64,000 bases of DNA, from NCBI RefSeq assembly GCF_964019385.1, contig NC_088655.1, forward strand, positions 15,558,357 to 15,622,356, written 5' to 3'. The position numbers and the translations under genes were made by a program. The notes below the pieces were generated by a model. It did no database searches. It saw only the letters and a program-made list of their open reading frames with translations, and was not told the origin of the DNA. This DNA is from Sycon ciliatum. Taxonomy: Eukaryota; Porifera; Calcarea; Leucosolenida; Sycettidae. Of this stretch, positions 4,428 through 63,561 are shown piece by piece (the first letter of the stretch is position 1; every line of letters begins with the position of its first letter).

Positions 4428-4980
4428 AACCAGCTCTACCTCTCGGTATTGAGCCCTCTCTTCGACAGCCTGGAACCTCTCTGTTTTTCAACTTTCAGTA
4501 CATGTAGTCACAGAATTTTCGATAAAAAGGTGATGCCTTTTCGACTGTACATTCGTTACTAAACTGTGGATGAGAAACCACGGACAGAAGAGCGAAGTAC
4601 TCGATATCCACGTTCGGTATGTGTTTGTAGTTTGGGTCAGAAATAGTATTCTAGAGGAGCAAACCAGCGATACGGTGACAAGCTACATGTACATGTAGGT
4701 GTATGGTGAAAGTTCTGGCTCAACGCTGAACGGATAGGTATTTCAATTCGCGCTTCTAGTGTTCAGACTAAGAGGTTCGTGGCGAACAAACGTCAACAGA
4801 AATAATCCCAGTGTACAATGCAGGAATTTTCCACAGAGATGCGTTAAGTTCCTGCATTCGTCTGTACGAGTACCCCACGAGGCCTATTCACCATCAGCCC
4901 ACAGCCCACAACGTACAGAGCACAATCCACGCCACAACACACACACACACACAACACTGGACATTACTCAAGGACATTAC

Positions 4981-5187
4981 CTCTATTGCTTTCTCCACAT
5001 CACCCATGGAGAGACTGCACGTGGCGGCGTTGAACTGCACAGCACTGGTGACATAATCCATGGAAGAGAAGGTCTCCTCGGCCTGGGCAAACTCTCCTTT
5101 CTCGAACAGGCTGATCGCCTCACTCCATATGGCCGTGTTCTCGCGCACATGGCGCGCAATGTTCCGCTTACGCTGCGCCACGGGCAT
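4981..5187 (-). CDS. p67phox/NOXA1-like TPR protein, probable first coding exon
   Basis: The ATG at 5187 opens 69 codons to a donor ATAGAG|GTAATG in phase 0. The peptide contains IWSEAISLFEKGEFAQAEET and SAVQFNAATCSLSMGDVEKA. This follows the first TPR of p67phox/NOXA1: an EAISL helix, a short loop, then the (C/Q)FN-x-(G/A) helix. Known: these proteins bind Rac through N-terminal TPRs and activate NADPH oxidase. The following exons should lie at lower coordinates, but none could be recognised in 1-4980, so the gene is partial. It lies downstream of the CTTNBP2-like gene on the same strand. Another TPR protein remains possible. Confidence 0.5.
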
Positions 5188-5239
5188 GTTGGACTCCTTC
5201 AGAAAGACACCACAACAATACTACTACCTAGACTCGTGT

Positions 5240-9258: not shown

Positions 9259-9264
9259 TTTATT
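9259..9264 (-). promoter_or_regulatory. Candidate polyadenylation signal for the CTTNBP2-like gene
   Basis: AATAAA on the minus strand (plus TTTATT) about 670 nt beyond the stop codon. The hexamer is common by chance; transcript ends would be needed to confirm it. Confidence 0.3.
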
Positions 9265-9930: not shown

Positions 9931-10214
9931 TTACATATATGTAATTTGGCCTGGGGTAGGTTCGACCGGTTTGATGGCATTCGCCGACAGCGTTTTCCGT
10001 GGCGATTGTCGAGTGATAACTCTCTTTGGCAGCCCGATTCCCTCTTCTCTTGTCGTTGACCCGGTAGTGGAGAGGCTGAATACATTGCTAGCGCTGCGGT
10101 GGTGACGTTTCTCTCCAGCAGACCCTCCACTGCTGCGACCAACACTCTGCGTGGACTTCATCTTGCCCAGCGCTTTGTGTTGACTGGAGCTCTCAGCCTT
10201 ATCCACATCGGAAG
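9931..10214 (-). CDS. CTTNBP2: CTTNBP2-like exon 22 (C-terminus, stop)
   Basis: Acceptor TTAATTCCTTCAG|CTT completes an Ala codon; 93 residues, then TAA at 9931-9933. The tail is basic and Ser-rich ([18 protein letters not shown]) and ends [13 protein letters not shown] 430-bp GA-rich tract lies in the intron before it. Confidence 0.82.
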
Positions 10215-10778: not shown

Positions 10779-13700
10779 AGAGAGAGACAGAGAGAGAGAT
10801 AGAGAGAGAGAGGGAGAGAGAGATGAAGAGTGACAGGGGGAGACTGTCAGACAGCGATAGATAGAGCATATGTCACGGTATTATCGAAGCTTTTGTTGCA
10901 GGCAGTCCACCTACCCTTCCCATGTCTCACACAGGGTGGGACGAACACCAGCTTTTTCATTCTCACCTTTGTTACTTCCAAGCTTCATCAGCTCGCTCAT
11001 GCTGCGCCGACGTACGTAGCTACTTCTCAACGAGCCACCTCTACCTGCAGCTGCCGGTCCGACGGCATTGCTGCCGTGTGGTAGGTGTAAAGCCGTCATG
11101 TCGGGTGAGGCGGATGTGGAGGAACAGAATACGTTGTCCTCGCTGTCGGCCGTATTGAGAAAGTCAGCACTTGCCGAGCGACTTGCCGGTTCCTGGATTT
11201 GCCGACCGTGTTCCAAAATATTCTCATAGTCATTCTGCTTGCGATCCTTGCTGCCATGACGGCCGAGGGTGAAAATATTCTCAAAGTTGTTCTGTCGGTT
11301 GGCGGCACTTTTCTTGTTTGATTTCTTAGCAGCTTTGCTGCTGCTGCCAGTGCTACCGGATGTCTTCTTAGTTGAAGTGCTGCTGCCCACGGCTAGGTCT
11401 AGCTCATGTCGTGGCTTCTGCATAAACATGCATGCCTATACGGAACAACAGGGAGCAGAATAACTACTCATAGGCACATTCAATACTGGAGGTGAATATC
11501 AGTTATTCTAACACTCTCATTTTTAGTTTGCAACTCTATGCAACACATACATGTACATGTATGTGTTGGACATCAACTGTGGTGGTAATGAAATCCTAGA
11601 ACAAAGGTGTTGAGATACACGTGCTACTAATAAACATAGGAATGACTGAATGATCCATGTACAGGTGGGACTTCTTGTTCACTTGGCTTCATTGCGAGGC
11701 TGGTCGCTGTGGGGAGGCTGGTCGCTGTGCGCTCTGCTGATCAGATGAAAGATTGTTGAAGCAGCTTCATGAAGCTGTTCAGAGATAAACATGCCGCGCG
11801 TACACGTGCATGCAGCTTCACTCCGTAACGGTGCTGATGTCTATCAAGGGAATTGCACAGTTCGGACTGTGTAACCATAGCAACTGGCTTACCGGTGCTG
11901 TCACTCTCTGGTCATCGATGCGATCGCCTTGCATCTTCGTGATCATGGCGAAGAATTCCTTGTCCTCTGATTTCGCCTTGACGGGTCTCTGCAGTGTCGG
12001 TGTCTCTGGTGCCACACTATTCCGCTTGCTTAGGCGTGCTGAGTTCCTTAGCCTGGCAGGGATGATGACACAAACAGAGAGATTGTCAAGCTCAGATTTG
12101 GACGGAAAGGTCGGCCCTAGTCACTTTCTGTGTACACTGTACTTCCTGACCACCCCTTGGGGCCGGAGTAAGCGGTCTTTAGTGGCAGGTGGTCCTTAGT
12201 AAGAGGTTTGCACTGCACAAATAATTATGATATGAATGTGAAACCGTTCGTGCCTGGTGAAGTGGTCTTTAGTACCAGGCTGGTCTCTAGTCACGGTGGT
12301 CTTTAGTACCAGGCTGGTCTCTAGTCACGGTGGTCTTTAGTACCAGGCTGGTCTCTAGTCACGGTGGTCTTAAGTTAAAGGTTTTACTGTATATCGTTCT
12401 ATGATCCTATTATACGGGTTGTGCACATTATGCCATGGTTCCCACCCATGCCCAGCAAGCCGACTCCACTATGGCCGCAAAGCATACATGTTGGGTTGGC
12501 AGATTAACTTATGTGTGCTAAGTAAAGAGGGCTAGTCAGGGGTTGCGAGTCCGGAGATTCACTTACCGGAGCTCAGTATGCAGCACAAGAAGTGGTTTCG
12601 CCTAAGCTAGTACTGTAAAACATGTAATTTAGGTGCATTAAAATTTCGGTGTCAGGGACCTGCCAGGTTTCAGGTGTAATGTAGAATTAGGTGACCAGCG
12701 TTCCCTTCACATACAGTGCATGCTCTAGTGCCTTTTAGGTGTAATTTAATTTTAGGTGCCTGTTTTCTCTACCGAAATCACCGAAAGTAAAGTTACACCG
12801 AAAATTACATGTTTTACAGTACATCGTCGCTGTGCCGTGGCTTTGCAAATCCATAGAAAACATCTCAACGGATGATTCACTTGCATCACCTCTACAGGGT
12901 AACTGCTAGCACTGTGAGTGAAATAATTATTTAGAATACATTCAAAAACCATGGACATAGACTATCCGCATTGGCCAGTGAATGCAGTGCTTCAAGATCA
13001 CGCACGTTTGAAACCGCTTGAAGATGCTGGGCGTGAGTGGTCGGTTGTTGTCCTTGGTCGGTGTTCCCTGTTCGCGGTTCGCCTCGATCTTGGCCAGCTC
13101 TATGTCCTCGCTGATGGTGTCTGCCTGGACCTCGCGCACTGTGGAGTGCAGCTCCCTCTGTGTCCTGGACGAGTGCTGCTGAGCAGGTAGCATGGACCTA
13201 CCCTGAGGGGTACTAGGTGCAGTCATATCTTCATCAAACTCCACCGAGAGTGCATCGGATGACGTAGAAATGACCTGCGTGAACGTTAGGTGACATAAAC
13301 AATTGGATTGAGTTTAAAAATATTCCCAGGCATTCTTACATACATGACTTGTGATAGAAGTAAAGAAGGTATGTGTCTCACAAATCGCCATATTTCAGAC
13401 ACAGATGCATTCTGCCTTCCCTACTCCTGTCTGACTTAGGAGAGTGTATGCCAATTTTATGTAATGTGCAAATTTCACACCCATATATTTACACTGAAAC
13501 TCTCATCAACACCCACACAGTTACAGACAGATAGACGGACAGACAGGCAGACAAACAGTCCCATACACCCACTTCTACCACACGCACGCACGCATGCACC
13601 CCCCCCCCCCCCACCCCACCCCCTCCTCCCACCGACACAAACACACCCGCTCACCCACCCACCCACCGCCACAGACACACCACCACACACACACACCCAT

Positions 13701-14847
13701 ACTCCCTCCCCCCCCACCCGCACGCACCCCCCCCCCCCCCACCCACCCACACACACACACAAGCAAACACAGGCACACACATTATACACGTGATACGTCT
13801 TGTGGTCATACATGATTACTCACATTATCACGGATCTCATGCACCATTTCATTGATCTCATCATTGTCCATGCCGCAGTGCAGTGACTCCAGCCACTGGG
13901 CTAGATCTGAGTAAGCAGAGGAAGTATTGAAGTTAATCTCCTTGGTTGATACGAGGAGGTAGGGGTGGGTTTGGGATGGGGAATCAAGTGGAGTGGTAAC
14001 CAATAAACTATTTGCCACTGAGCTCTGTTTGTACAATCCACTCCATTCGTTTTGCAGCATGGCGTGTTTTGAGTCTCACTCAGTGCTGACCAGTGCTACG
14101 GACACAAGAAAGAGTCGATAACGCCAAGAGTGTGCAACTCTCTGGGCTATGGGCGCTCTGTGAGGCCCATTGCCTCCTGGCTACGTAGTGAGATGAAGAG
14201 CAAGCTGCCTGCTTGTGAGTGTTCCTACAGTGCTGGCAACTGAAATCCGACCCCCTGGGCGGTGCGTTCACTTTCTAGCGGCCTCTATTTCGTAGTGTTT
14301 CGATGTGAGCGCACCGCTCAGGGGGTCGGATTTCAGTTGCCACCACTGTACTTTTGGCAGCAACACGTGCAATACGGTAAGTTTAAAGCACAGCAGCACA
14401 CTGTCAGCAACATCATTTAAAAGAGAGAAACAGACAACATGGCTCAGCCTTAGTGGAAGGCACACACACGCACGCACGCACATACACAAACAACCATGCA
14501 CACACATTCGCGTCTCCCATACACATATCGCATGCAAGATGCAAACAGAAATGCCTTGTTTGATAGGACAGAACAGGGGAATAGAACTACACATTTGAGT
14601 TCACTTCCTTCTTACCGTTGCCCTGCAATGGACAGGTTGGAAGAAGAGCTAGGCGAATAGTGACAAGCAGCAGTTTGACACTTGTTAGCTGACAACGCTG
14701 ACGACTAGGGCTTGGCTGGTCATGGCTACCACCGGCTTCTTCAATGCATGGTGCTAGTTGATTGTTCCACAACTCTGCCAGCCAACTATAGGCACAAACA
14801 TATGCATGCCACAAGACAGACACATACACACACACACAGATACAGAC

Positions 14848-14880
<33 letters not shown>

Positions 14881-17800
14881 CACAGACAGAAAAACATATA
14901 CACAGACACACAGACAGGCACACAGACAGACACACAGACAGACATACACATGCAGAGAAGCACACATCAACACACTGACTAACACAATGAGACAACAGAA
15001 GCAACATGACTAGAACAAGAAGGGCGGTGTGAAATTCTTATACCCTAAAGAGAGTTTACAGGGTTGGATGATTACAGGACATGGTGCCAACTGGTTAGAG
15101 AGGCAGTATGCCACAAATACCGAGGTGGAGATACAGTAACTAACTATCAATCATATTCACACATATCTGCTGGACGAGTACGCATGGCCTATGCAATATA
15201 GGGATCCACGAATTAGGGATCAGCATGCATTCCATCAGACAGCAACGCAAGCAAAGAGAAGCAGATTGTTTGCGTGCACACAGGTGCAGCAGAAAACACA
15301 GCTAGCATACCGAAGCGGACTCTGGGAATGTAGAGATGTATTTTTTTTTTTTTTACAAAATCCACATTTCTCCAGACACTGGGGTGAATGTTGGAGTGTG
15401 GTGGTGGGGCCCATTAAGCTCCGCGTATACAATCAACTTTGCGTATTACAACACTCGGCGGGGCATCAGAAAAGTGTCCTTTTTCGCAAAGTGTCCTCAT
15501 GCCCAATGTCTCATTATATTATGTATTACAGTGGGATGGGACTTTGCTCTGTGCATGGAAATTCTGTTGTTATTCGCGAATTGTCGTTATATCCGCAGTC
15601 GTTATTAGCGAAGTTGACTGTGTCAATGATCACAATACCATACCTTGCTACTGCTGCCGGGTCGGATGACTGAATCGGGCAGGAAAAGAAGACGTTTGGT
15701 CCTGCAGGTAACAACCAGATACGCACAACATCTCTGCTGAAATCAGCTACTAGTACAGCTAACGTGACATGAATCTTGAGAAGCCAAGTGAGGCTTCAGT
15801 GTGATGAATGGATTTGGGATTCCAATCGAAGGTCTGAAGGGAAGCTGTGTGTGTACACGCTAGAGGGAAACGCGAAATCACTGCACACGGCATAAAGCCA
15901 TCACTGCACACGGCATAAAGCCATCACTGCACACGGCATAAAGCCATCACTGCACACAGCATAAAGCCATCACTGCACACAGTATAAAGCCATCACTGCA
16001 CACAGTATAAAGCCATCACTGCACACAGTATAAAGCCATCACTGCACACAGTATAAAGCCATCACTGCACACAGTATAAAGCCATCACTGCACACAGTAT
16101 AAAGCCATCACTGCACACAGTATAAAGCCATCACTGCACACAGTATAAAGCCATCACTGCACACAGTATAAAGCCATCACTGCACACAGTATAAAGCCAT
16201 CACTGCACACAGTATAAAGCCATCACTGCACACAGTATAAAGCCATCACTGCACACAGTATAAAGCCATCACTGCACACAGTATAAAGCCATCACTGCAC
16301 ACAGTATAAAGCCATCACTGAACACAGTATAAAGCCATCACTGCACACAGTATAAAGCCATCACTGCACACAGTATAAAGCCATCACTGCACACAGTATA
16401 AAGACTGTGAATACAGGCTCTTCTTTCCATGCTGTTACAATTTATCTACGCTGTTACTTCTCGGATACAGCAGCGGAATATAGGTTTTTATGCCAAGAAG
16501 AAGGACACACTTCAGGCTCTTGAACTTTTCGAATACATTTATAGGAAACCCCGGCAAAAAAAATGAACACATGGTGTCTCACCTAGCACTAGCTGACTAT
16601 AGCCAAGGAAAGTGAATAGCTTGTTGATCCTCTGCCATACATCATTGATCCAGGCAATGCACTGTTCTTGACCAGACGGCAGCTCTGCTCCTGATCCGGT
16701 TATCATTGCTACATCACTGACATACACAATAGCAATATAGCAGAATGGATGAATATCTATTGCCGGTTTGATTGCCAAGTATCATCTCTGGCTTGGGGGG
16801 GGAGGGGGGGGGGATGTATGACTTGGGGTTGGCGCTACATTGGTAAGGCAAAGACAATGAAAGAAAGCAGGTAAAAATGATGTCAAACTCATTGATAGGG
16901 CCTACACAGGGTCAGAATTAACTAAAGGGCGCCTTTACTTTCAACTTTGCTACCGTTATCTCTGGACCACATCGTGGGCTTCTCTCAGCATTCATTATTG
17001 TGATTTCGTTTTCGTGTGAAACTCGGCTAGAGGCCAAGTATTCCGCATCCGGAGGAACGTCACCATCCTCAAGGATCAAGGCGCAGATGCATCTCCTAAA
17101 TCGACGAGAAGTGAGTAGATCAGGTCCACCGCCAAGTGGTCAAAGATAGAAAAACCCAATCGCTGCATCCATGCTTCCCTCCTAGCCTAAATCAAGGGCT
17201 CTCCTAGGATACGTGAAGCAGAAATCACTACATGCAGGCCATGCACTACCGACCTGCTGCAGGTGTGTGCGTGAACATCGGCTGCTCTGGCAATGACAAG
17301 TTGGCGCTGTAGATGCCGCTGAAGCTGCCCGCCGAGCGGCTCAACGTCCCAGCGCCATCGGATGTGGAAAAACCGGTGCCAGCTGCGTGGGTCCAGACCG
17401 ATAGGGCTGTTTGCAAGTAACACAGGGGACACACAAACACCCAGTGGTTAGTTTCATACACAAACTCAATACAGTCAAGCTTGCGAATAGCGATGATCGG
17501 TCATGCATGATAAAAGTGTCGTTATTCACGAGTTGTTGTTATACCCGAGGTTGGCATTCACATGCATGATTGCATACTTGAATTGCTAAGTCTTGATGCT
17601 TTCACTGGCCAGGGGCAAAGCCGTGGTACTAAACAACTGCCAAGAGCCATGGAACCACAGAACATGTTTGCTAGGTGAGATACTGTTGTGGACCTCGACG
17701 TCCGTTGAGAAGTCAATCGGGCACGTGGCGCTGGCCTTGCAGCCGTGAGTACTGCTGGTCCGTTTTTACAGTGTATACCGTCAGGCGAAATTACTGGTCA

Positions 17801-20800
17801 GTCGGCGACACGCATTTTTCACAAAAAATTGCGTTTCACCTGCTGGGAGAGTGCGCGTGTACTCGAGTCTCATCCTGAGCACGTTTTTTTCTTTCTTTTT
17901 TCAGCTCCAGTATAGCTGTATTTTTCATTGCAAAGCCGTCCTCGATTGTTGTGTTCGTTATTCAAACGAAGTGGACACTCAATCATGAAGGCAGAGGACA
18001 TAGGAGCCTGAGTGGAGTTTCTCGTGGCATAGGACGGCCACACAGAGACACTTTGGGATTTTCTGAATATAAAATACCGTACGCACGATGCTGAGATCAA
18101 TTTGTGCGATATCAAATTGTTTGTGATCTACCACATCGAGCAGAACGGGATCCAAACACAAGCTTACCGACGGTTAGGCTGCCGACCTGACTGGACAAAT
18201 GATCCCTGGCTTCACAAGGCGCCAGAAGTCGGACACCATGTCCTTTGCCGCGACGTCCATCTCCAAAAAGAACTCCATCTTCGTCGTGAAAAGGCTTGAA
18301 ATACTCAATATTCAACCGAGATTCGCGGTCTCACCCTTTCTCAGATCGAATCATATTTTGTTGTAGCAGTTGCAGGGCAGATCACCGCCACTACTTCAAC
18401 AGAAGATGGCTCCAAAGCATGTCTGGAACAAGCCATATCGAGGTTGCAAGCCACCCCTCTCAGCACTTTTTTTGAAGAAATTCGAAATTTCAATGGTGGA
18501 AGATATACTATGAAGAGAATTTCAAAAAGTATGTTTCGCGGAGCGATCGCTCAACCTACATCATTAAAACTTTGCAGGATGGTTCAGACGTACATGCTAG
18601 GCATGGAACCACAGAAGATGATATCATAGCTGACACACAGAGTCACACACACAGCAGATTCGTGTGCACAGATACGAAATTAGTGGACGTCGTCATCTTC
18701 TTCCCGCTGATCTCAAATGTACTATGACGTGCTATTTCGCCTGACGGTGAGCTACAGTGCGTGTACGCGCTAAAGGCCCTGGTCATTCCACCAGATTCCA
18801 ATGTACACAACAGTAGGACACAACTGCAGAGTTGTGACCAAGATCTAAGCATACACTTGCAAGTACGCCAAACATGTTTATTCGGACAGGCTTACCCAGT
18901 CGTATCCAAGGTAACCATGAGGTGCAACACCCCGACAAGGCGGTACAGACCGCCTGGCAGTGCGCCCTCGTTCAGCCACAGAGTCTGATCGCCGTGGAGA
19001 CAGCTGAGCAGTTCGCCCAAACCATTCTGTATGGACTGTGCTGAGCTGCTCTCGACAACCAGTATGCAGTGACGAGGCGGCGGTGATTGCCGTGAACTTG
19101 AAGTGGCGGAGCGATCACCACATGTCTCGTAGTCTTCCTCAACCAGCATACCTGTGCACACCAGCACACACATTCACATGCACACATGTGAACACACACG
19201 TACAATAAAACCTGTGACTAACGACCACCCCTTGGGGCCAGAGAAAGCGGTCTTTACTGGCAGGTGGTCCTTAGTTAGAGGTTTGCACCGCACAACCATA
19301 CAATAAAACCTGTGACTAACGAACACCCCTTGGGGCCAGAGAAAACGGTCTTTAGTGGCAGGTGGTCCTTAGTTAGAGGTTTGCACCGCACAACCATGAT
19401 TATAGGAATGTGAGACCGTCCGCGCCTGGTGAAGTGGTCTGTAGTACCAGGCTGGTTGCTAGCTACGGTGGTCTTTAGTTACAGGTTTACTGTACAAAAG
19501 AGAGTGATGTCTACTAGCAGAATACCATGATCATGAACGTCGATGAACCACCAAAAGACACTAACACTAACTTTGACTTCTTACACCACCATAATCGTAT
19601 ATTGTGATATAAAGCAAAGACTCTCTGCCGAACAGAGTTCTCTCATCTTTAGTTGGACTTACGACTTACCTGTTCTGTGCAGCATTTTTAGTATCCTATC
19701 CTGTTCACCGTGCTGTCCTCGCAAAGAGCAACCCAGCATGTCCACCTTCACCTTTTCTGCCTTCAGTGCACTCTGCAAGTCATACAGATATTACGCATGG
19801 GAACAAGTCAACATCCACACAAGTTCACATAGTCATTCACAGAAGTGGAGCCAGTTACATAATTCACATACACATCAGGTTAGTGAGAAGCAATTTCGAG
19901 CAGCTTCATCTGTAGAAAGTAGTTGGGTGGACACACCCATTCCCCAAGCGCTGCACAAGACCGACCCAATTCTTACCGTACCGTTTCGAAAATATTGCCA
20001 TTTGTCAGGTAAGAGTGAAACAATCATTGATTGAACTGGTATGTGGAAGTCCCTTGATGTGTACATTAAATTTTGTGCACAGTTGCACGCTACATCTCTC
20101 CGACTTGCCGTGAAAGTGCAGGCAAAGTCTCATTCCAAATTTTTGGACTGTGCTGTGTTGCTATCAGTTAAGATAAATCGTACGGGTTGCTCATCTCATC
20201 AATGTCAACATTTACCCTTGTCAGCTAAGGAGAGTACACATGGTCACAAGTACTTACCAAAAGGCACCGGGCAAGGCTTGTGGCAATCTCGGATTTGCCG
20301 CATGCAGGCGGGCCACTGAACAGTACCTTGCCTTGTAGACGAAACTGCAATACGCCAAACAACACAATAGAAATGTTAGTGTCAGCATTTCAATGGCAGA
20401 GAGGTTATTGGGAGAGTGTTCTTATGAGCGAGTTCATACATGACTTGACTAAATGCACTCCAGCAGTATAGGGAAGGTTAGACCAGGACCCACCGTTGAC
20501 CAAGAAAGATAACCATGCCCCTTTCTGACACTGTATGTAACATTTAACTTCCCATGCCTTAGTCAATCCTGGAAGAATACTCTAATTTCAGAAACGTTCG
20601 GTGCTCAATATTTTCGGTATGAGAGCAACAGGCCAGGTTAGGTGAACAGACATTTTAGGTACAAGAAGCAGTTCCCTATTGGATTATGTGTCTTAGTGTT
20701 TGTTCGGTGTATTGAAATTTTAGGTATATAACAGACGCACCGAAAGCACCGAAAATAAAAGTACACCGAAAATTTGTGAAATTACAGTACATAGTTATAC

Positions 20801-23800
20801 TGCTGTGGACATTGAGATCCTATGGGATAACTGGGGCCGGCGTCCCTACAGCCTTAGCACATATATGCATTGTAGTTCACGTACACACTGCAAAAATGCA
20901 CCAACAGTGCTCTCGGCTACAAGGCCAGCGGCCCGTGCCCGCTTGACTTCTCAACGGATTTTAATATCCACAACAGTAGCTAATAATACCTTGTCAAGAT
21001 AGGACCGGAGGGTGTTCATTGGTATTAGTGTCTGGTAGCTGAGCTGATCAAGACGACCTTCACCGATGCCTGCAGACAGAGAATAACAGAGAATGACACC
21101 AGCAGGAACAGCGTTCAGGAATGTGTTGCAAAAAATGGCATCGGGCAACGGCCCAGACGCCAGAGAAGTCTACGGAACGGCTATTTATAGACACTACACA
21201 CTCTACTTAGCTGAAAACAATGTTTTTTTTCACATTGCTGGGTATGTCTGTGCTGTTTCCTCTCGCCCTAAACATCAGTACTTGCCTAGCTTGTCTGCAC
21301 AGGCTAGACAGAGGTATATAAAACGAAAATGTCATTGTTCGAGTGAGACTCTGCTAGAGGCTGAGTTTTCCGCATCCGTAGGAATGCCACCACCCTTCAA
21401 GGATCAAGGCGCAGATGCAGCTCCCAAAGGGGTGGGAGAGGTACATAGGGAGTATTCAAATTGCAGTCCATACAAAGAAAGTCGGCGCGGTTTAAACTAC
21501 GAAGGTCAAATTATCGGTGGTATTGAGGTAGAGGTCTGTCGTTCGTGACAGGAAGTCTGGGTGCGGCTTATACTCCGGAAAATATGGCAATCGCATAACC
21601 TCTAGAGCATACATTAGACTCCATGGGGCTACATGTATGTGTACACAGATCTAACATACCCTTTAGGGACACAGTGATGCTCTTCTCCTCTCCAAAGAGC
21701 TGGTATGGTGATGTGCCCGCGGCATCGTTGATTCCTTCATCACTGGGTAGAGTCTGGGCATCCGGTCTCCACTTCTACGAAAGAACACAAGCAAACACAA
21801 GTAGCAGTATGATATATCACTCATAATGATGACATACAGCCAGGATATTGTACTTCGGATGACATCATAGCCTGTCATGGGAATTCATTCACATCTTTCT
21901 GAGGAAGAGGGGAGGGGAGTGGCGAGGGGGAGGGTAGTGGAGAGGGGGAGGGGGAGGGGAGAAGGAGAGGGAGGTGATTAAAACATAATTTTTTGAAAGA
22001 ACCTACAGTTCATACCTTATCCTGTCCAGCTGAGTACATTCTGACTGAGTCCACGCCTAGGCCAATGTCGCTGGCATACACAGTCGATGCCTTCAGCTGG
22101 CCAGCTGTCGGTAGTACAACATTACTGCCACTGCTGGTGTTACAACAGCTTCCAGCGCTGTTAGCCGTGATTGAACTACTCCATGATGTTATGGACTTTA
22201 GTGTGGCAGTTTTCACCACCGGGTCATGTGTACCAACGGCTAGGTGGCTGGCCTGCAGAACAAAACAAGGGAGCCGAGTAGGATGATGATGTCACTCTAC
22301 TTACTTCAGTTGAAACCTGGTTTCCATGACAACTCACAACACTGGCCTATCGTGGTGTTTCAACACGTGGTCTCTGAAACCAGGTTGACCCTTCCACATT
22401 TCCCATATTCAGTGGAAGAACATAGTGGTCCTTCAGCCAAGGTGGCTGCTGAAACCAGGTGGCTGCTGAAACCAGGTGGTTGCTAAAACCGGGCGGTTGC
22501 TTGAGCCAGCTGGTCTGTTGACCAGGTTCATCAGCAGTGTACTAGTAGTGCAGTTTTTCCAACTAAAGGGTGTTCCTTGCTGTTGTGCTTAGCCTTGCAG
22601 ATGTACCAAGGACACACAGGTCTGTCTAAAAAAAGGCCTATCCCAGGTTTGATGAAATTCACTGTCTGCCATCAAAGGAAAGCCAATAGCGTCAGATAAT
22701 CCTACAGCACACAAAGTTTGCTTACTGGTGGTATGGCTCGATGCTGCAGACATTCCGTGGGCAGAGGTTGCGAAACAGACTTGCATATAGCTGACAAGTG
22801 CCTATCAAGTGTCTTCCACACATCCGTCTCCAGCCTAGACCAGCTTGTTCTTCTGGTGATTGTGACCGTTCCAAGATTGATGCTTGTGTCTCCTTGCACA
22901 CCTGCGGAAAGAAATGATAAAGATTACAGTTCGCATGACACTCGGTCACACAGAGGTTTCCGCATCCATAGGAAAGCCATCATCCCGTGGGATCAATGCG
23001 CCTACGCAGCTTCTAAAGCGGACCCGTGGATGGTGTGGAACAAACAACCTAGGCATGCCCGCCGGTGCAGCTAAATGATGTCACACATAGAGTCTGGCGT
23101 ATGCTGTAAAAGGACTGGCTTATTTTCTGACTGTCTGTCCGTCTGTCTGTCAATCTCGCCTGTTGCTTGACCATGAATAACTGGGGAGCATTTGGACACC
23201 AGATGGTATCTCAAATATTCCTGCTATGCTTTCAATGACACCCAACATCAGATACAGGCTAAAGAACTACCCGAGACTTACCATATCCCTGTCCACTGTT
23301 GAGATAGGGAAATTGTAAGACGACGTCTAGCTCGCACGCACACTCATCTATGCAGTGAGAAAGCAAAGACAAAGTGCAGGAGCAAAACATGCCCTCAATA
23401 CCACCATTCATTACACAGCGGATTGCGACAGGAATATCAAGACACAAGACCTGAAAGCAAGTACAAAATCATTAGAAATGAGGATAGAGGATGGGGTGAA
23501 AATCACAACATCATTATACTCTGTCAGGGAAAATTTTTACAAGGAGTGCAACTTTATTCCTCAAATATCTTTGCGGGGATACAAATGCTAAGGAGAAAAT
23601 TGGACACGTCAATCGTCACTGAGCTCACCTTGCCGGTAGGGCAACCTCAAAAAGGATATTGAAATGTGGTTATTCTTGATATAATTATTAAATGTAAATA
23701 TACAAAATTTCAGCAGCTTTTCAATTTCGGCTATATTCGGCACTGACCCAAAACGCCCAAATTACAACGCCGATGAAATGTTTCACAAGTCTCGTTGTGG

Positions 23801-26800
23801 AACTGACCCTATACCTCGTGCCAAAAATAAATAACGGTGGTACAGTAAAAGCTGTCAAGGCGACCACTCGGATAAGGCGACCACCTGTCCACGAAGACCA
23901 CTGAAACCAGGACCAAGGGATGCTATTTCCAGTCAATTGACCCTGGATAAGGAGACCACCTGGTAACAGAGACCAGGTTTTGAAGGTCCCACGAGCGGTC
24001 GTCTTAGACAGGTTTCACTGTGTATTAAATTTTACAGTAGATGCAAGGTCGCACCCCACATACCACATGCCACACACCACATGCCACACAGCACACTGCA
24101 CACACCGCATGCCACACACCACATGCCACACAGCACACTGCACACACCGCATGCCACACACCGCATGCCACACAGCACACTGCACACACCGCATGCCACA
24201 CAGCACATGCCACACAGCACACTGCACACACCGCATGCCACACACCACATGCCACACAGCACACTGCACACACCGCATGCCACACACCACATGCCACACA
24301 GCACACTGCACACACCGCATGCCACACACCACATGCCACACAGCACACTGCACACACCGCATGCCACACACCACATGCCACACAGCACACTGCACACACC
24401 ACATGCCACACAGCACATGCCACACAGCACACTGCACACACCGCATGCCACACACCACATGCCACACAGCACACTGCACACACCACATGCCACACAGCAC
24501 ATGCCACACAGCACACTGCACACACCACATGCCACACAGCACATGCCACACAGCACACTGCACACACCGCATGCCACACACCACATGCCACACAGCACAC
24601 TGCACACACCACATGCCACACAGCACATGCCACACAGCACACTGCACACACCGCATGCCACACTCTGCACATTGTACACCAGTTACCTATGCTCTCTTGA
24701 CGCCGATCATGAGCTGGCGATATGCCAGTACTGTAATCTTCAGCTCCCAGTGCCTGCAATCACGTAGCGAACATGACCAACGAAGAGGATCAATAATGCC
24801 GGACAAGCCAAAAGACATGACAACACGCAATCTAAAGACCAGAAGCTTTTCACGCGTGAGGAGTATCATCATGCTGCATGACAGTTCATGGGTAGAATCA
24901 GCAACGCTTCAGTGGGAATCAGGCAAATTTTCACATCCATTGCTTTCTACAAGCTTCCAAACTAGCCTGAAGAATTCAATATGTTATTGCAGTTAATCAG
25001 GCAGAAGTCATTCAGATGAGACGTCATTTGATATATAAGGCTGATCCAAATCATCTTAAAATGGCTGACCACAGTCTTGATATGAGGAGGCTAGAATGAG
25101 GACAGTTGCATGAGTAGAAAACTCACAGAGTCTGTGCTACTTGGCGAGACAATGACGGTGGATTTCTGTGCTAATGTCAGGTCACTGGCAGAATCTGTCT
25201 CTGTTGTCTTGGAATGTCTCAGCTTCTCCAGACTAGTGTCGCCGTTCACTACACGTTGCAGAATCTCAATACAACGCTTATGACTTCCCAGACACGCGAG
25301 TAGCAATGCTTTCTTCAAGGCCTGGACCAGCAAGCAATACAAGCAAAACAAATGTTACACTCACGCACAGACACAAACACATCCACGCACCCGCACACGC
25401 AAACACACACACAAACACACACACACACACACGAACACACTTTCTATGTATACACGCTTTTGAGTAGAAAAGTAGTGTAGTAAAGTGCAGCATCACCCTT
25501 ATCAAGGGGCCTTCGGAGAAAATTTCCAATGCTTTCACCGAAGTGTGACCATTATCACAATATCTCACTCACACACAGTGAAACGTATCCAGTACGTATT
25601 CTGCTGAGATGAACACTTGCTTACTACAGCCAGTGTCTGCGGTATCCATGACTGTATTGCCCAATAATTGATGACTGCTCGGAAAACAAATACCTCCGTA
25701 CTAAGTAAACGTTTCTGTTTCTCCTGTGAGTACGTATAATCAGAGTTTCACAGCAGTTATCAGCAGTACACTTACCTGCTGTCTCTCAGCTGTGTCTGCA
25801 GTGTTCTGTAGTATGGTTTCCACACACGGTGCATGTCCATTCTTAGCCGATAGCTGCACAGCACTGAGACCCTGGGTGTCAAGCATCCATGGCTGCGCAC
25901 CGTGACTCAATAGCTCCTGCACACATCTGCATCAGAGCGATACACACAATGCACAACACGCTAAGTTACGTATGAACAGACATAATGGTCTGAAATGAAA
26001 TGGTGGTTTTTGATGAAATCGGACCTTGTTCATTTTTCAAATAGACATGGAACCCGTATTCAGTGAAGCAGCATGCTCTTTAGCTGGGTCTTTGTATTGC
26101 AGCGGTACGTACTTCGAAGTAACTTAGATGAGCGTACAAGCAGCACTCGCCCTTGAAGGTAAATATCACGTTCCAGTTTGCGTTTGCATTCTCATATTGC
26201 AATGCATTCTGACTATGGATTTCTGGCGCATTTATTCGCGTAAAAAAAGAGAATTGAAGGGGCAAAGAAAGTTTAAAGAAAGAATTGGCGTATCATGGCA
26301 AAGTGAACTAGCTAGCACTGGTCATTGTGCAGCCTTACTGCAGCACTGTCAGTGGTCTGGGTGCAGTGGACCAAGGGTGAGGGGTAACCTCTGGTTACGT
26401 TGCACGTCACCTATGATTCTGCCACATATACCACCATTATTTGCAGCACGGTTTTAGTATAAAACTGACATTTCAAAAACAGAAAAGAAAATGGAATACC
26501 CGGAATACCCTATCTCACATAGCAAGGCAGATTTTGGCCAATACTAGAGGAGCTCGAGTGCAGATTGCTTCACATAAACCCCAGTTCCGATTGTGTAGGG
26601 TGGCTATTATTTTAACCCACGGCCACGGCTGGCTATCGCCGCTCTCTCCATATTGGCCTCTATTCCACGAGAAGGTGAAATAAAAAATACATAAAAATTA
26701 CCAAGTACTTCCGTGTATGTGTGGTTGTGATGTCCCATTAGCTAGTGTGGCAGGTGATGCACGTGGTGATATGGGACTACTTACACCTTATGGCCGTTAG

Positions 26801-29800
26801 CAGAGGCCAGATGCAGTGCAGAGGAGTTGCCTGTGCTGACAGCATTACAGTCTGCGCCTTGCGAGAGCAACAACTTCACGCACGCTGTGCACACAACATG
26901 GATGGCAGCCAGAGAGAGCAGATCTAACTCCTGCATCCTTCAGTCCAACTCATGCACCCTTCAGTACAACTCATGCACCCTTCAGTCCCAAGACATCAAT
27001 AGAGATGAAAAGTATGGCGGCCACTGTGAGCATGTGGCGGCCCCTGTGAGCATGTGGCGGCCCCTGTGAGCATGCATCACGTATACATACAGTGGAACCT
27101 GCCTTAGGCGACTGACCGCTAAAATGTGGTCTCTGTGTACAGGTGATTTTCTTATCCAGGATCATTTGACTGGAATAACATCCCTTTGTCCTGGTTGTAG
27201 TGGACCTCTACGACAGGTGGTCACCTTGACAGGTTTTACTGTGTCTGCTTGCTTACTGGAAACTAAACATGAGCAGCATCTCTAGAACGATTGTAGCAGC
27301 GTGGCCATCGGAGTTAGCGTCCCCCACTTTGTTTAGTGGATATACAGCAGTGGTTTCCAAAGTTAGGAACAAAATCATCATGTATTGTAAATGCCTGTTC
27401 CGTATTTCTTTGGATTGTGCTCACATTCATTTACCGTCTTTTCAGAAGTATAATCCAGACCTAGATTTGTTGCCAGGAAATACAAACATCTACTCTGTTT
27501 ACCAACATCAATTTGACCCGCGTAGTGTTAGCCTCAGCACCGACTTCATTGCGTGAATTACTAGTGTTTACAGTGCGGTTTGCACTCCGAAAAATACGGC
27601 GTGTAGAGAGGTCTTGCAATCACACCATCGTTTCAAGTTCCATGGAGTAGCATCACCAGCACTGGTTTGCTCTTCAACACAAAGCATACGCTGTCACCAC
27701 AGGTTTGCCTTGCATTACACAAACACTATGATGTAATCCCCGGTTTGCCTTTCAATAAAAATCACACGGTATGATGTAATCTAAAGAGTCTCTATAAATA
27801 TAGAAATGCCCATATCCCTGAACTTACCCAGCTTGCCATCCTCAGCGGCTAGCCTGAGCGCTGACTCTATGGAGCTGGCAGGGCTGCTGGCTCGGAAACA
27901 GGCGTGCACATTGGAGTTGGTTGCCGAGAGTGAGCCAATAGCAGCGGGGAGATCTCTATCAGATCTAGCTATCGCATTCTGCCTGAGAAGCTGGGATGAG
28001 TTCCTGACAAGCGGTGACTGTAGTACCGGTACCGATGCATGTGAGCTCAGCTGCGGTCTCATGCCAGGTGATCGCGGTGTGCTGGGATGCGAGCTTGAAG
28101 ACGCGGGCAGTGAGCTCGTTGCCACGGCACCGTTGGGCTCAGCTGTGGGCTGAGATGAGCGTACGCGTGGTGCCACTGGAGGCGGCGTAGCTGCACTGCG
28201 AGTTTCTTCCACTGGTGCACCATCCTGCTCCGCCGGCATGTTGTCGCAGGGCGGTGTTTTGCGACCGGATTTCACAGTGTCATCACACAGTAGCTCTAGC
28301 TCTGCCAGCTCCATTGCTCCCGAGTAGCGCTCGGTAGCTCGCTCTGCACTGGATGTTGAACTCCTGGATGGTGTGCGAACGCGAGCGACACCGGGATCGT
28401 CGACCGTCACCGTCAACACCGTGCTGGCGCTGAATTCCTGGCTGACTCTTGATTTGGCTGATTGATTGTGATCGGGTGCAGGGAAAACGTCGTTCTCCGC
28501 AAACACGTCCACAGCTGTGTCAGTGGCGGATGGCGATTGCAGAGATGGTGCGTGTGATTGAGGCTTGTCCAGTGTCTGTAGGTTGGGTGTGGACAAAGCC
28601 ACACGCTGCAGCTGAGTACTGGTAGGACTGGCACTGCTGCTGTTGCCACCACCACTGGCACTGGCACTGCTCAGTTCTTGCATGGGCGTGAGGACCGAGC
28701 CACGACGCGGCGGGGGCAGGGGACGATTACCTGCAGGTGACTGCGGTCGGTCGGTCAAGCTCAGCTTCCTGCCTAGATGGTCACGACGGCCTGGTGATGT
28801 CGGCGTGACAACAGTTGCTGACGGCGATGTAGCTAGAGTACTGGCTCCGTCTTCGGATGCCTGGCCGGGCTTCTTGAGCTTGAAGTTTGCTGGTTTTCTG
28901 GCTACTGGTGGTGGTGGTGGACCACCGGAGGGTGACGGAGTGTTTCGATTCGCAAGTTCAGGTGAATCTGGGAAAAACAATCACACACGATTCCCCCACA
29001 CACATATGTACACATACACATACCCACATACGTACACACCCACCCACACACTTAACATCAACTTTACTGCTCAAACTCGTGTCTAATTGTAAATCTTGGT
29101 ATCCCATTTACATGGGTGATTTACTGCTTTCTCTATTTGGCAATAAAGTAACAAACCAGGTACAAACACTCGGCGGTATACACAGAAATGACAGAACTAT
29201 TATTGGTACTTTGATACTATGCAAGGCACTAAGCGTTAGGATACGGAATACTGTCATTGTGGCATGTATTACGATGGCATTGCATTGCTTCGTGGTGATT
29301 GTTGTCCTTGTTGGTGTGTTTGTGAATTTGCCGGCTGCTCGATTTGGTCCGTGGAACAGCTCATTAATGAAAATGAACTACCTGATGTATTTCCACAGTG
29401 TACTCTGACAATTTGCTATTCATTAGTCACAGGGCTTGGTTTAGAGGAACAGTGGACAGTGGTTCCAGTGTTACCGTCGGCCATTGTTTTCCTGTAGCAG
29501 GCTCTGTTTCACTGAGGACGTTTTGTGTGTGAATGCATTACAGAGGGCTTCACATGACTGGACCGTGATGCTCAATGAAATCCAGGCGAACACTCAAGTA
29601 CGCGCCGGGCGTTGCGCAGCTCTAGACCTGCGAACACTGGACAGCGAAACGGTGCAAGGCGCAAGGCGCAAACTTGAGCGACGCGCGCGTTCATTGAGCA
29701 GGACTGTAGCAGAGTCTTTCGCTGCCACTAGAGAGGGAGAGAGACCAGCGCAATGCCTTGGCCTTAGATCAGGCAGCTTGTAACTGCTGAGAGTGAATCT

Positions 29801-53770: not shown

Positions 53771-59450
<5,680 letters not shown>

Positions 59451-60218: not shown

Positions 60219-63200
60219 TCACTCATCGAAAACATTTTCAAAAAGGAGCTGTTTTAGCCGGGTACATTGTGGCCCGTCATTAAGAAGGCAGGCAAGATGG
60301 GCGTTAAATGCAGAAGACGTATTGCAAGACTTCATTTCGAAGGGCAGAGCATTCCAAAGTAAAGCAATCCTACTAGACAATGAGCGATACCCGCATGCGG
60401 TCTTCTATCGGCATAACGAAAGATTATTTGCAGAAGAGCCGCGAGTGGTGTAAGCAGGTGTACTGTGCCTACAAAATAGAGAATCTAAACTGGCAACCGG
60501 GTGAGCTACTTTACACTGAAAGATAAATTTAATGAACAACTGTAAGAAACGGTGGTCCAGAGGACATAGCTTAAGAGAGTGGTAAAGGGGGTCCACGTCA
60601 GCACAGTAATGGGCACCACAGGCAGCTCGGATCGCGCGACGGTGAACAGCAAATAGGCGCCCACGGTCTTTTGCAGATAAGCAGGGTAAGAACGATTGAA
60701 ATGCAAATTCTAGATCAGATTGAATTACGCATAGCACATAAAGGCGTATCTCAATCATGGTCTTTGACCAACCCACGATTGAGATACGAGAGGTACCTGG
60801 TTCAAGTCCTGCCTGGGAGCGGTTTTTCCAGCCGTGCTGCTACCCACAGTCAACTGGGAACTTGTGGCCAGGCACAAGGGGTACATGGATGCAGCTAATG
60901 GGGTCGTTTTCGGCACTTGTGCCAGTGGTTGTGAGACTTACCCACTCACCCCCACCGTTAGGCGCTGCATCTGCCGCTAGGGTTTATCGGGTGTTAGCGG
61001 CCGTCGTGAGTTCCCTTCGGGAACGGATACGATAATTTACTTTTTTTTACTTACATAAAGGCGACAAGCGCACGGGGACAGTTGACGAAAAGAACGCCGT
61101 AGAGCACCAATTTTGCGTGACACCTTGGCAACAAGCTTATCACAATGAGGTGTGAACGAGAGCTTGTTGTCAATTACAACCCCCAGACAGCGAGCACTGG
61201 ACACTTCTGTCAGCACTTTACCATCGATACAGATAGTGGGCGTGGGACAGACCGGCGAGCGCTTGGGAGCGATGAACATACAACAGTCTTATTATCATTG
61301 ATAGTCAGGCCAAGTTGCTGAAGATCAGTAGCGAGTGCTGATAACGTGTGGGAAACTAAATCTGCAGCCTCCTTTGCCGTCGGACAGGATGCGTACACCG
61401 TTTTGTCGTCCGCAAAAGCGAGCAATTTCGTCCCGGATGTGTCAGCAGTTGCAGGAAGGCGGCGAACATAGATGTTAAACAGAGTTGGGCCCAAGACACT
61501 GCCTTGCGGAACCCCACGAGTGACAGGTAGAAATGGAGAGACCTCACCGCACCTGAGGACCCGCTGGGCTCTGCCAGAAAGGTAGGATTTAAACCATGAA
61601 AGTGCTGATCCGCTGATACCAATCTCGTGCAAAGCCAAGAGTAGCTGCTGATGCTGCACACGATCGAACGCTTTACTAAGGTCAACAAACGCGACAGCAG
61701 AGGTCAGGCTCTGGTCCCGAGCAAGACACCAGTCATTAATTGCCAAAGAGAGCAGTTGATGGACGGAGCGATTTGGGCGGAACCCAAATTGGTGATCATG
61801 TAGGAATGCAGTCGAGTCCAGGTGACAGAATAGTTGCGACATTACCACGGATTCCAACACTTTGGACAGGATCGACGTCAGCGAAACTGGGCGGTAGCTC
61901 GTTGCGTTGTAGACGTCGGTCTGAGCGGATTTTTGGGATCGGGGTGATGTTGGCTCGCTTAAAGGCAGAAGGAAACACTCCACTGCTAAGAGACGCGCTG
62001 AAGATTTGTGCCAAAGAAGGCGCCAAGGAGGACGCCATGGCCTTGAGGAAACCAGGCAGAAGGCCATCTGGACCCGGTGCCTTGCACGGTATAAGGGAGC
62101 GAAGAGCACGCTCTACCTCTGTAGTGCTGACCCGATCGAAAGAGGTCAATGCATCTTCAAGGACCGGTCCAGACGGCAGGTCGTACGTGCTTGTGGGGTC
62201 GTGGACTATAGCATGGAAGTGGTCATTCAGGTTAGGTGCAAGAATGGGAGACGACTTTGGTTTACGCTTTGTCACATAGTTGATTGTAGCCCATAAGCGA
62301 CGCGGAGATTTTCTGTATTCGGCACAAATTCTCTGATAGTGCTGGTTCCGCAGACGACGATAGAGATTGTTACATTGGGTGCGAAGGCGCTGAAAGCTGT
62401 TGTAAAGCTTGGTGTCTGTGGAACCTCCCTTGCGCCACGTGCGAAAGGCCGCTTTACGCCTCCGAATTAGTGCTTGTAGCTCTGACGTAACAAAGGGGCA
62501 CTTTCGACGAGGAGCATGTCGGTAATGCTTAGACGGTTTATATGGCGCTACCAAATCCAGCACTGAGTCAACTTTACTTGTCCATTCGTCAACCATACTA
62601 TTCACGCTGGAAGAGAGAGAGAAAGTACAGAGGTTTGCGGACTCTAAGAGGGTCTCCAATTGCTTGATATCGGTGTTGGAAAAGTCCCGACTGGGCAGGC
62701 GCTGGTTGCAGTCAGTCGGGAAAGAGTAGGGGTCGGGGGTTGTCAAGGTTGCACATACCAAACAGTGATCGGAGTGCTCAAAGTCATGAACAATACCGCC
62801 TGAGACAGCATCTGTATTACTTAGAATGTAGTCAATTGACCATGACGACTTCGGACAAACACGAGTTGGGTCGTGAATACAGTTTAGAAAGTTAAAGGGC
62901 AAAAGAAAGTTGGTAAGGAGAGACAAGTAGAGCTGGGATGTAGGTTGGAGAGAATCCACGTTCAGGTCACCCATGAGCACCAATGAGTTACCCTGGAGTT
63001 CTGTCAGTTCCTGCGCCAGGGAAGTCCAAAACGATGCTGGGGAATTCGGGGGTCTGTAGAGGCAACCAAGATGGAAGGGAGCAGCATTGCGTCGCCGGCG
63101 AGATGTAAGCCAGAGCATTTCAAAATTATTTGAGCTTCGTAGCAAGTGCCAGGTAAAGCCAAGTCTAGTGCTGGTGTACACACAGACACCTCCCGCCTTG

Positions 63201-63517
63201 CGGCAGGGGACTGAAAGACCACTAAGGCAAGGGCAGCTTCGTGGACACTCTCGGTCGCGTCGGAACAGCGTGTACCCGTCAATAGCTAGTTCTGAGTGAG
63301 CAACTGTATTGTCAAGCCAGGTTTCAGTAATAGCGAGAACATCCAGGGAATGGTCGGAGATGAGGGATTGAATTTCATGGAGTTTATGTCTGAGGCTACG
63401 CACATTTAAATGACCGATATTGATGTTATGATTAGTATGATGACTGGGTAGAGATATTGGTGGTGGAGGATGTGATCTGGGGGTGAACGGTGGTGCGAGT
63501 GGATTTAGAGGAGACAT
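60219..63517 (-). pseudogene. LINE ORF2: endonuclease-reverse transcriptase, disrupted
   Basis: Starts MSPLNPLAPP, 44 bp after the ORF1 stop. The AP-type endonuclease is intact by motif: IGHLNVRSL, ITETWLD, GDLNVDS, SIDYILSN and EHSDHCLV with the catalytic SDH. RT blocks: KAPGPDGLLPGFLK, YRPVSLTSILSKVLE, FGFRPNRS, VDLSKAFDRVQH, RGVPQGSVLGPTLFNIY, and FADD in the catalytic box. Frameshifts lie near 61910-61930 and 61270-61280. A SINE interrupts the thumb region at 60747-61052. A TAG follows NNLSLCR at about 60405. The C-terminal RIALLWNALPFEMK block and a final TGA at 60219-60221 complete it. Confidence 0.87.
60747..61052 (+). mobile_element. SINE inserted in LINE ORF2, with target-site duplication
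   Basis: ACATAAAGGCG occurs at 60736-60746 and 61053-61063. The insert starts TATCTCAATCATGG, has a B box (GGTTCAAGTCC) at about 60800, the family body and a T-rich end (TTTACTTTTTTTTACTT). The LINE frame reads RLYV on both sides of the insert, as expected from the duplication. This copy defines the family's limits. Confidence 0.9.
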
Positions 63518-63561
63518 GTTTACTGATTGGTACCGTGGGCGACTCGATCAGTCTCCCAATA

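Follow-up and report, generated by a model that had tools for sequence, protein, structure and literature searches.

The locus analysed here raises the question of whether a short exon encodes a genuine GoLoco motif and, if so, whether this motif belongs to a CTTNBP2-like gene, where it could link a scaffold protein to Galpha-i. The window, i.e., the whole stretch of DNA that was analysed (64,000 nucleotides), corresponds to C14:15558357-15622356 of an assembly of 538,412,230 bases in 313 contigs. In our reading, a gene of the CTTNBP2/Navigator group is probably a new GoLoco carrier, with the motif in a presumably disordered C-terminal tail that would bring the scaffold to Galpha-i/o-GDP.

The initial annotation had placed the motif at 11893..12052, and these coordinates are correct: the exon runs from 12052 to 11893 on the minus strand, where the quoted peptide was found again (21 residues) within a translation of 53 residues for the whole exon; the plus strand does not contain this reading. 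Its splice sites are standard (acceptor cctgccag/GCTA, donor ACCG/gtaagcca), and it is indeed in frame with its neighbours, with entry phase 2, exit phase 0, and both flanks matching in a hand-built gene model. The exon itself was recovered, but not its number: named exon 20, it is exon 19 of 21 in this model, the 5' end of which is uncertain. Codon scores, trained without the tail, assigned it a value of 14.0 in the model frame, equalled by none of 3000 random non-coding 160-mers from the same strand (737 of them with an open frame). Furthermore, a gene finder was run twice, with a training set that was taken partly from the tail in the first run and excluded the tail in the second. The second run retained the exon in the same frame, with 289.4 bits versus 272.1 when the exon was forbidden; in the latter case, a 22-base exon (12911-12890) preserved the frame, for a solution 17 bits lower. 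Leaving the exon out of the hand-built model adds six residues, followed by a stop. No NCBIfam family was matched by the exon.

The Pfam GoLoco profile (PF02188, curated cut-off of 25.1 bits) matched residues 32-51 of the 53 with 27.8 bits (E 1.7e-6) and a 27-residue core with 29.8 bits. The profile search that had been proposed as a check was, therefore, positive for the exon alone, but the score no longer reached the cut-off in the joined tail of 387 residues (23.8 bits) and in the full model of 1643 residues (22.3 bits, E 9.1e-5; profile match at residues 1378-1397), where the motif lies at residues 1376-1395, C-terminal of ankyrin repeats and of a NAV1-type AAA lid. All four PDB sequence matches at E <= 10 were GPSM2/LGN (4jhr, 1.1e-5; 4g5s, 0.0032; 4g5o, 0.11; 4g5q, 0.11). 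The alignment to the GPSM2 GoLocos revealed that the residue set described beforehand (the paired aromatics FF, Q-x-x-R, and DDQR) is entirely retained in an ungapped core. The initial observation is confirmed, and the profile match of the exon alone is beyond chance. A chance or decayed look-alike that lies in a disordered tail and does not bind G proteins would agree with the shortness of the motif and with the lower score in longer contexts; however, we consider it unlikely, since the exon outscores the other 13 candidates of the 538-Mb search, holds all three of these elements, and lies in an open, coding-like frame.

These candidates derive from a six-frame search of the animal's own genome with PF02188, which had no matches in its 538 Mb at the default E value; at E <= 10, 14 candidates were scored and eight matches were obtained. 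The focal exon was the sole one of the 14 over the cut-off (27.9 bits; whole-genome E = 0.0016):

11899..11958 (C14:15570255-15570314), minus strand: GoLoco profile match of the six-frame genome search with PF02188.

Two of the 14 control genomes matched, both bacterial and below the cut-off only. The genome searches proceeded exon by exon, so that any GoLoco interrupted elsewhere by an intron would escape them. The other seven matches were one further full GoLoco-like site (C1:70944354) and six fragments; four of these fragments were re-examined, and no GoLoco gene could be read in these four. The fragment at C2:27249324 (18.4 bits) overlaps a longer open frame that is read in a different phase. 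The second full site scored 22.2 bits in the genome search and 19.1 bits in its frame of 295 residues. A PDZ open frame (E 6.3e-13) lies on the same strand at L055:4616-5500 (minus strand), and the GoLoco-like motif follows about 18 kb on, in L057:3762-5834 (minus strand); no RGS domain (PF00615) was found around the site. By layout only, this gene is a candidate RGS12-like one.

A query composed of two GPSM2 GoLocos retrieved one candidate and one match from the genome, i.e., the focal exon (E = 0.81), a weak result that says little on the existence of an LGN gene with split motifs. Searching the genome at the DNA level for Q-x-x-R/S-[hydrophobic]-[DE][DE]-Q-R/S gave 13 matches, versus 5 for the reversed control. 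Five of the 12 matches other than the focal exon were read, none with an FF helix upstream; among the remaining seven, three are (nearly) identical in letters to one of those read, three are mutual copies, and one contains a stop. Moreover, probing the genome with the tail retrieved eight candidates and four matches, all within the tail's own four exons; the tail is one locus in the assembly. The scan of GTDB genome contigs for the tail gave 53 pattern matches, 0 of which were confirmed.

From the genome search with PF00503, 45 Galpha matches, split by exon, were obtained from 60 candidates. The best one is a full-length single open frame with the C-terminal sequence NNLRDCGLF, and its top PDB matches are Galpha-i1 chains (E 3.3e-172). 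It is identical to the Galpha-i1 chain 20zg_A at 254 of 354 positions, and at 66 of the 73 from DVGGQ to NKKD, so that the surface contacted by GoLoco helices is largely present. Long single-frame Galpha genes, at least four of them, are also clustered at C1:39096979-39154732 (L026, L027, L031, and L032).

In the structure of the RGS14 GoLoco with Galpha-i1-GDP, as given in the accessible part of the source, the helix sits between switch II and alpha3, and the GDP beta phosphate is contacted by an arginine finger (PMC12329598). In the mechanism that we propose, a 12-residue part of the motif would dock as a helix onto Galpha-i/o-GDP, in the groove bounded by switch II and helix alpha3, with the last Arg of RIDDQR directed to the GDP phosphates; this binding would slow GDP release and keep Gbeta-gamma off. 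The scaffold would, in turn, be recruited to a membrane carrying inactive Galpha-i, as with the GoLocos of GPSM2/LGN and RGS14, and its ankyrin and AAA parts would act as carriers of cytoskeletal cargo. Each LGN/AGS3 GoLoco binds Galpha-i3-GDP, according to the portion of the paper available (PMC12151148); a lone GoLoco could be a weak binder. Spindle orientation is one possible use of the putative motif. The many Galpha matches in the genome would also allow the motif to bind a Galpha other than Galpha-i, or to serve less as an anchor than in competition with other GoLoco proteins, a reading that overlaps with the main one; nevertheless, it appears improbable, given that a close Galpha-i is encoded in the genome and that the GoLoco partners are Galpha-i/o in the parts of both papers at hand (PMC12151148, PMC12329598).

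The question of which gene carries the motif depends on the hand-built model, for which gene-finder results, family resemblance, and phase were used. It consists of 21 exons and 20 GT-AG introns, with a single terminal stop and 1643 residues, and the phases fit throughout; this fit is not independent evidence at exons 6, 11, and 13 and at the ends of exons 3, 14, and 15, since these were chosen by phase and family resemblance. The features of the model are the following:

Exon 1, 30402..31017, minus strand: ATG shortly preceded by an in-frame TAA; coiled-coil-like stretch (by eye); the start is inferred.
Exon 2, 27828..28967, minus strand: Pro/Ser-rich region and beginning of the ankyrin repeats; in both gene-finder runs.
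Exon 3, 26785..26884, minus strand: ankyrin repeats; the gene-finder runs took a nearer acceptor (26857).
Exon 4, 25776..25926, minus strand: ankyrin repeats; in both runs.
Exon 5, 25127..25321, minus strand: end of the ankyrin region; in both runs.
Exon 6, 24687..24753, minus strand: low confidence, retained by phase; not in the second run.
Exon 7, 22726..22901, minus strand: Navigator-type ubiquitin-like region (weak, below cut-off); in the second run.
Exon 8, 22016..22252, minus strand: in both runs.
Exon 9, 21660..21774, minus strand: in both runs.
Exon 10, 20990..21069, minus strand: in both runs.
Exon 11, 20258..20344, minus strand: Walker-A-like GPPACGKS; weak acceptor; in neither run.
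Exon 12, 19670..19772, minus strand: in the second run and the hand-built model.
Exon 13, 18896..19151, minus strand: low-confidence acceptor; in neither run.
Exon 14, 16583..16716, minus strand: NAV1-type AAA lid; the runs kept just the last 10-14 bases.
Exon 15, 15644..15701, minus strand: NAV1-type AAA lid; another frame in the first run, the last 26 bases only in the second.
Exon 16, 14616..14785, minus strand: end of the NAV1-type AAA lid; in the second run, not the first.
Exon 17, 13824..13906, minus strand: in the second run, not the first.
Exon 18, 13006..13274, minus strand: in both runs.
Exon 19, 11893..12052, minus strand: GoLoco exon; both runs, codon score, and profile.
Exon 20, 10967..11417, minus strand: tail rich in basic residues and serine, with two copies of N-x-[FY]ENI; in both runs.
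Exon 21, 9931..10214, minus strand: C-terminus and stop; in the first run.
AATAAA, 9259..9264, minus strand: past the tail stop; none else on the strand from 14616 to here.

Both gene-finder runs start upstream of exon 1 of the model, with additional small exons. Compared with the hand-built model, the second run is without exons 6, 11, and 13 and contains exons 3, 14, and 15 in part; it also places two small exons ahead of the focal one and ends at 9749-9730 instead of 10214-9931. The codon scores trained without the tail are negative in the model frame for exon 17 (-1.8) and for the last exon (-10.1), which are thus without support by this measure. The AATAAA at 9264 represents weak evidence, since there is an ATTAAA at 12750 (minus strand) and four more AATAAA occur in the upstream introns of the model. 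The two copies in exon 20, C-terminal of the GoLoco, are NNFENI and NDYENI; the latter resembles a Grb2-type pYxN site. The introns of the model gene also harbor two minisatellites, with a 42-bp unit (24057-24663) and a 23-bp unit (15877-16403). Elsewhere in the window, we observed a strikingly long and pure trinucleotide array (53771-59450; 5.7 kb, CTA unit, about 1893 copies, 100% match), a LINE-like element (61213-63547, minus strand) with an endonuclease (E 2.1e-11) and a reverse transcriptase (E 5.7e-35) in different frames, and an open frame (4897-5220, minus strand) with no Pfam match at E <= 0.01, which, by eye, we take to resemble the TPR start of p67phox/NOXA1.

An in-frame stop after the exon-16 donor (GKKEVNSNV, then the stop) makes a short form ending there possible. 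Together with the ATTAAA at 12750 and the lack of exons 16 and 17 in the first gene-finder run, it would also suit a motif that is read, but in tail exons that form a gene of their own, located downstream of the CTTNBP2-like one; this is very unlikely, as exon 17 begins about 700 bases past exon 16 with the frames running on, AATAAA is absent on the strand from the lid exon to 9264, and the second gene-finder run, with the tail excluded from training, joined exons 16-20.

CTTNBP2 has ankyrin repeats followed by a Navigator/McrB-type AAA region, and the human protein is 1663 residues long. The full model matched Ank_2 (Pfam, E 7.1e-15) and AAA_lid_NAV1 (PF25408, E 7e-13; E 8.4e-14 over exons 14-16), and a lid match that is spread across three exons supports the gene model. 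The match to the NAV1-type ubiquitin-like region was weak (E 0.0068, below the cut-off), and the P-loop of the AAA part reached no Pfam cut-off. Three of the seven PDB matches to the AAA part were McrB chains (whole-sequence E 4.4e-4 at best; E 0.38 at best for the individual stretches shown), in line with the placement of CTTNBP2/Nav2/Unc-53 in one animal lineage of McrB-derived AAA proteins, as stated in the accessible part of PMC10602043.

The CortBP2 domain contains, according to the portion of PMC6602326 available, the N-terminal coiled coil that is the most conserved part among CTTNBP2, CTTNBP2NL, and Naus. This domain (PF09727) was absent at E <= 0.1 from 134 open frames upstream (132 of at least 42 residues, filtered, at 31-52.5 kb, and two at exon 1) and had no match in the full model; genome-wide, 13 candidates were scored and six matches were obtained at E <= 10, the best with E 0.73 and none over the cut-off. 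These searches, carried out exon by exon, can miss a domain split by introns, and the window's own three-exon AAA lid was missed likewise in a search of this type, not being one of the two matches obtained. The label CTTNBP2-like given by the initial annotation is partly supported: the ankyrin repeats and the Navigator-type AAA lid agree with it, but the CortBP2 coiled coil was not found over the cut-off. The further step to a cortical actin/STRIPAK scaffold is unsupported, as CortBP2 was found neither upstream nor over the cut-off in the genome; for this reason, cortactin/STRIPAK functions are not carried over here, and the name refers to the ankyrin-AAA half. The predicted protein fits a member of the CTTNBP2/Navigator group. 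A NAV-like gene with the same lid was observed on the same strand at C14:15088605-15090594, with about 0.48 Mb separating it from the CTTNBP2-like gene. In the 70 kb around it, the ankyrin part matched with E 1.2 at best and the GoLoco text pattern had no matches, so that it looks like a Navigator proper. The two genes are possibly an old duplicate pair.

If the motif of this probable new carrier works, it would provide a direct route from receptor-independent Galpha-i-GDP to a CTTNBP2/Navigator-type cytoskeletal protein, coupling the cytoskeleton to G-protein signalling, and it would be relevant to the origin of cytoskeletal positioning by cortical Galpha-i in animals. It seems quite improbable that this scaffold, rather than LGN/Pins, bears the animal's principal LGN-type GoLoco, as a parallel to or a replacement for the Pins-Galpha-i anchor; in that case, microtubule/actin scaffolding would be tied directly to cortical Galpha-i-GDP. 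For the sponge Amphimedon, according to the available text of PMC8576264, two annotations had to be combined to obtain a Pins/LGN with GoLocos, the TPR and GoLoco parts of which were inferred to be conserved.

In the literature searched, largely composed of papers outside subscription, none joined GoLoco and CTTNBP2, in agreement with the initial annotation, which knew of no such motif in CTTNBP2; none joined GoLoco and ankyrin repeat with either AAA ATPase or sponge. We know of no GoLoco in CTTNBP2. GoLocos occur in architectures with TPR, RGS/RBD, or RapGAP domains and in small proteins (e.g., PCP2 and GPSM3); to our knowledge, an ankyrin-AAA scaffold is not among them.

Compared with known systems, the motif shares with GPSM2/LGN (Pins) an ungapped core with FF, Q-x-x-R, and D-[DE]-Q-R (4jhr, 4g5s, 4g5o, and 4g5q), whereas LGN, in the part of PMC12151148 at hand, harbors TPRs and four tandem GoLocos. 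Here, a single GoLoco lies behind ankyrin and AAA parts and no TPR was matched at E <= 1 in the full model, which does not place the gene in LGN/AGS3. RGS12/RGS14 and Rap1GAP likewise hold one GoLoco within a multidomain protein; unlike in these, RGS, RBD, and RapGAP domains had no match in the full model (E <= 1). The NAV1-type AAA lid and the weak NAV1-type ubiquitin-like region are shared with NAV1-3, from which the CTTNBP2-like gene differs in its ankyrin repeats. Although the CortBP2 domain was not found here and a putative GoLoco lies in the tail, the model of 1643 residues resembles CTTNBP2 in its ankyrin repeats and Navigator/McrB-type AAA region.
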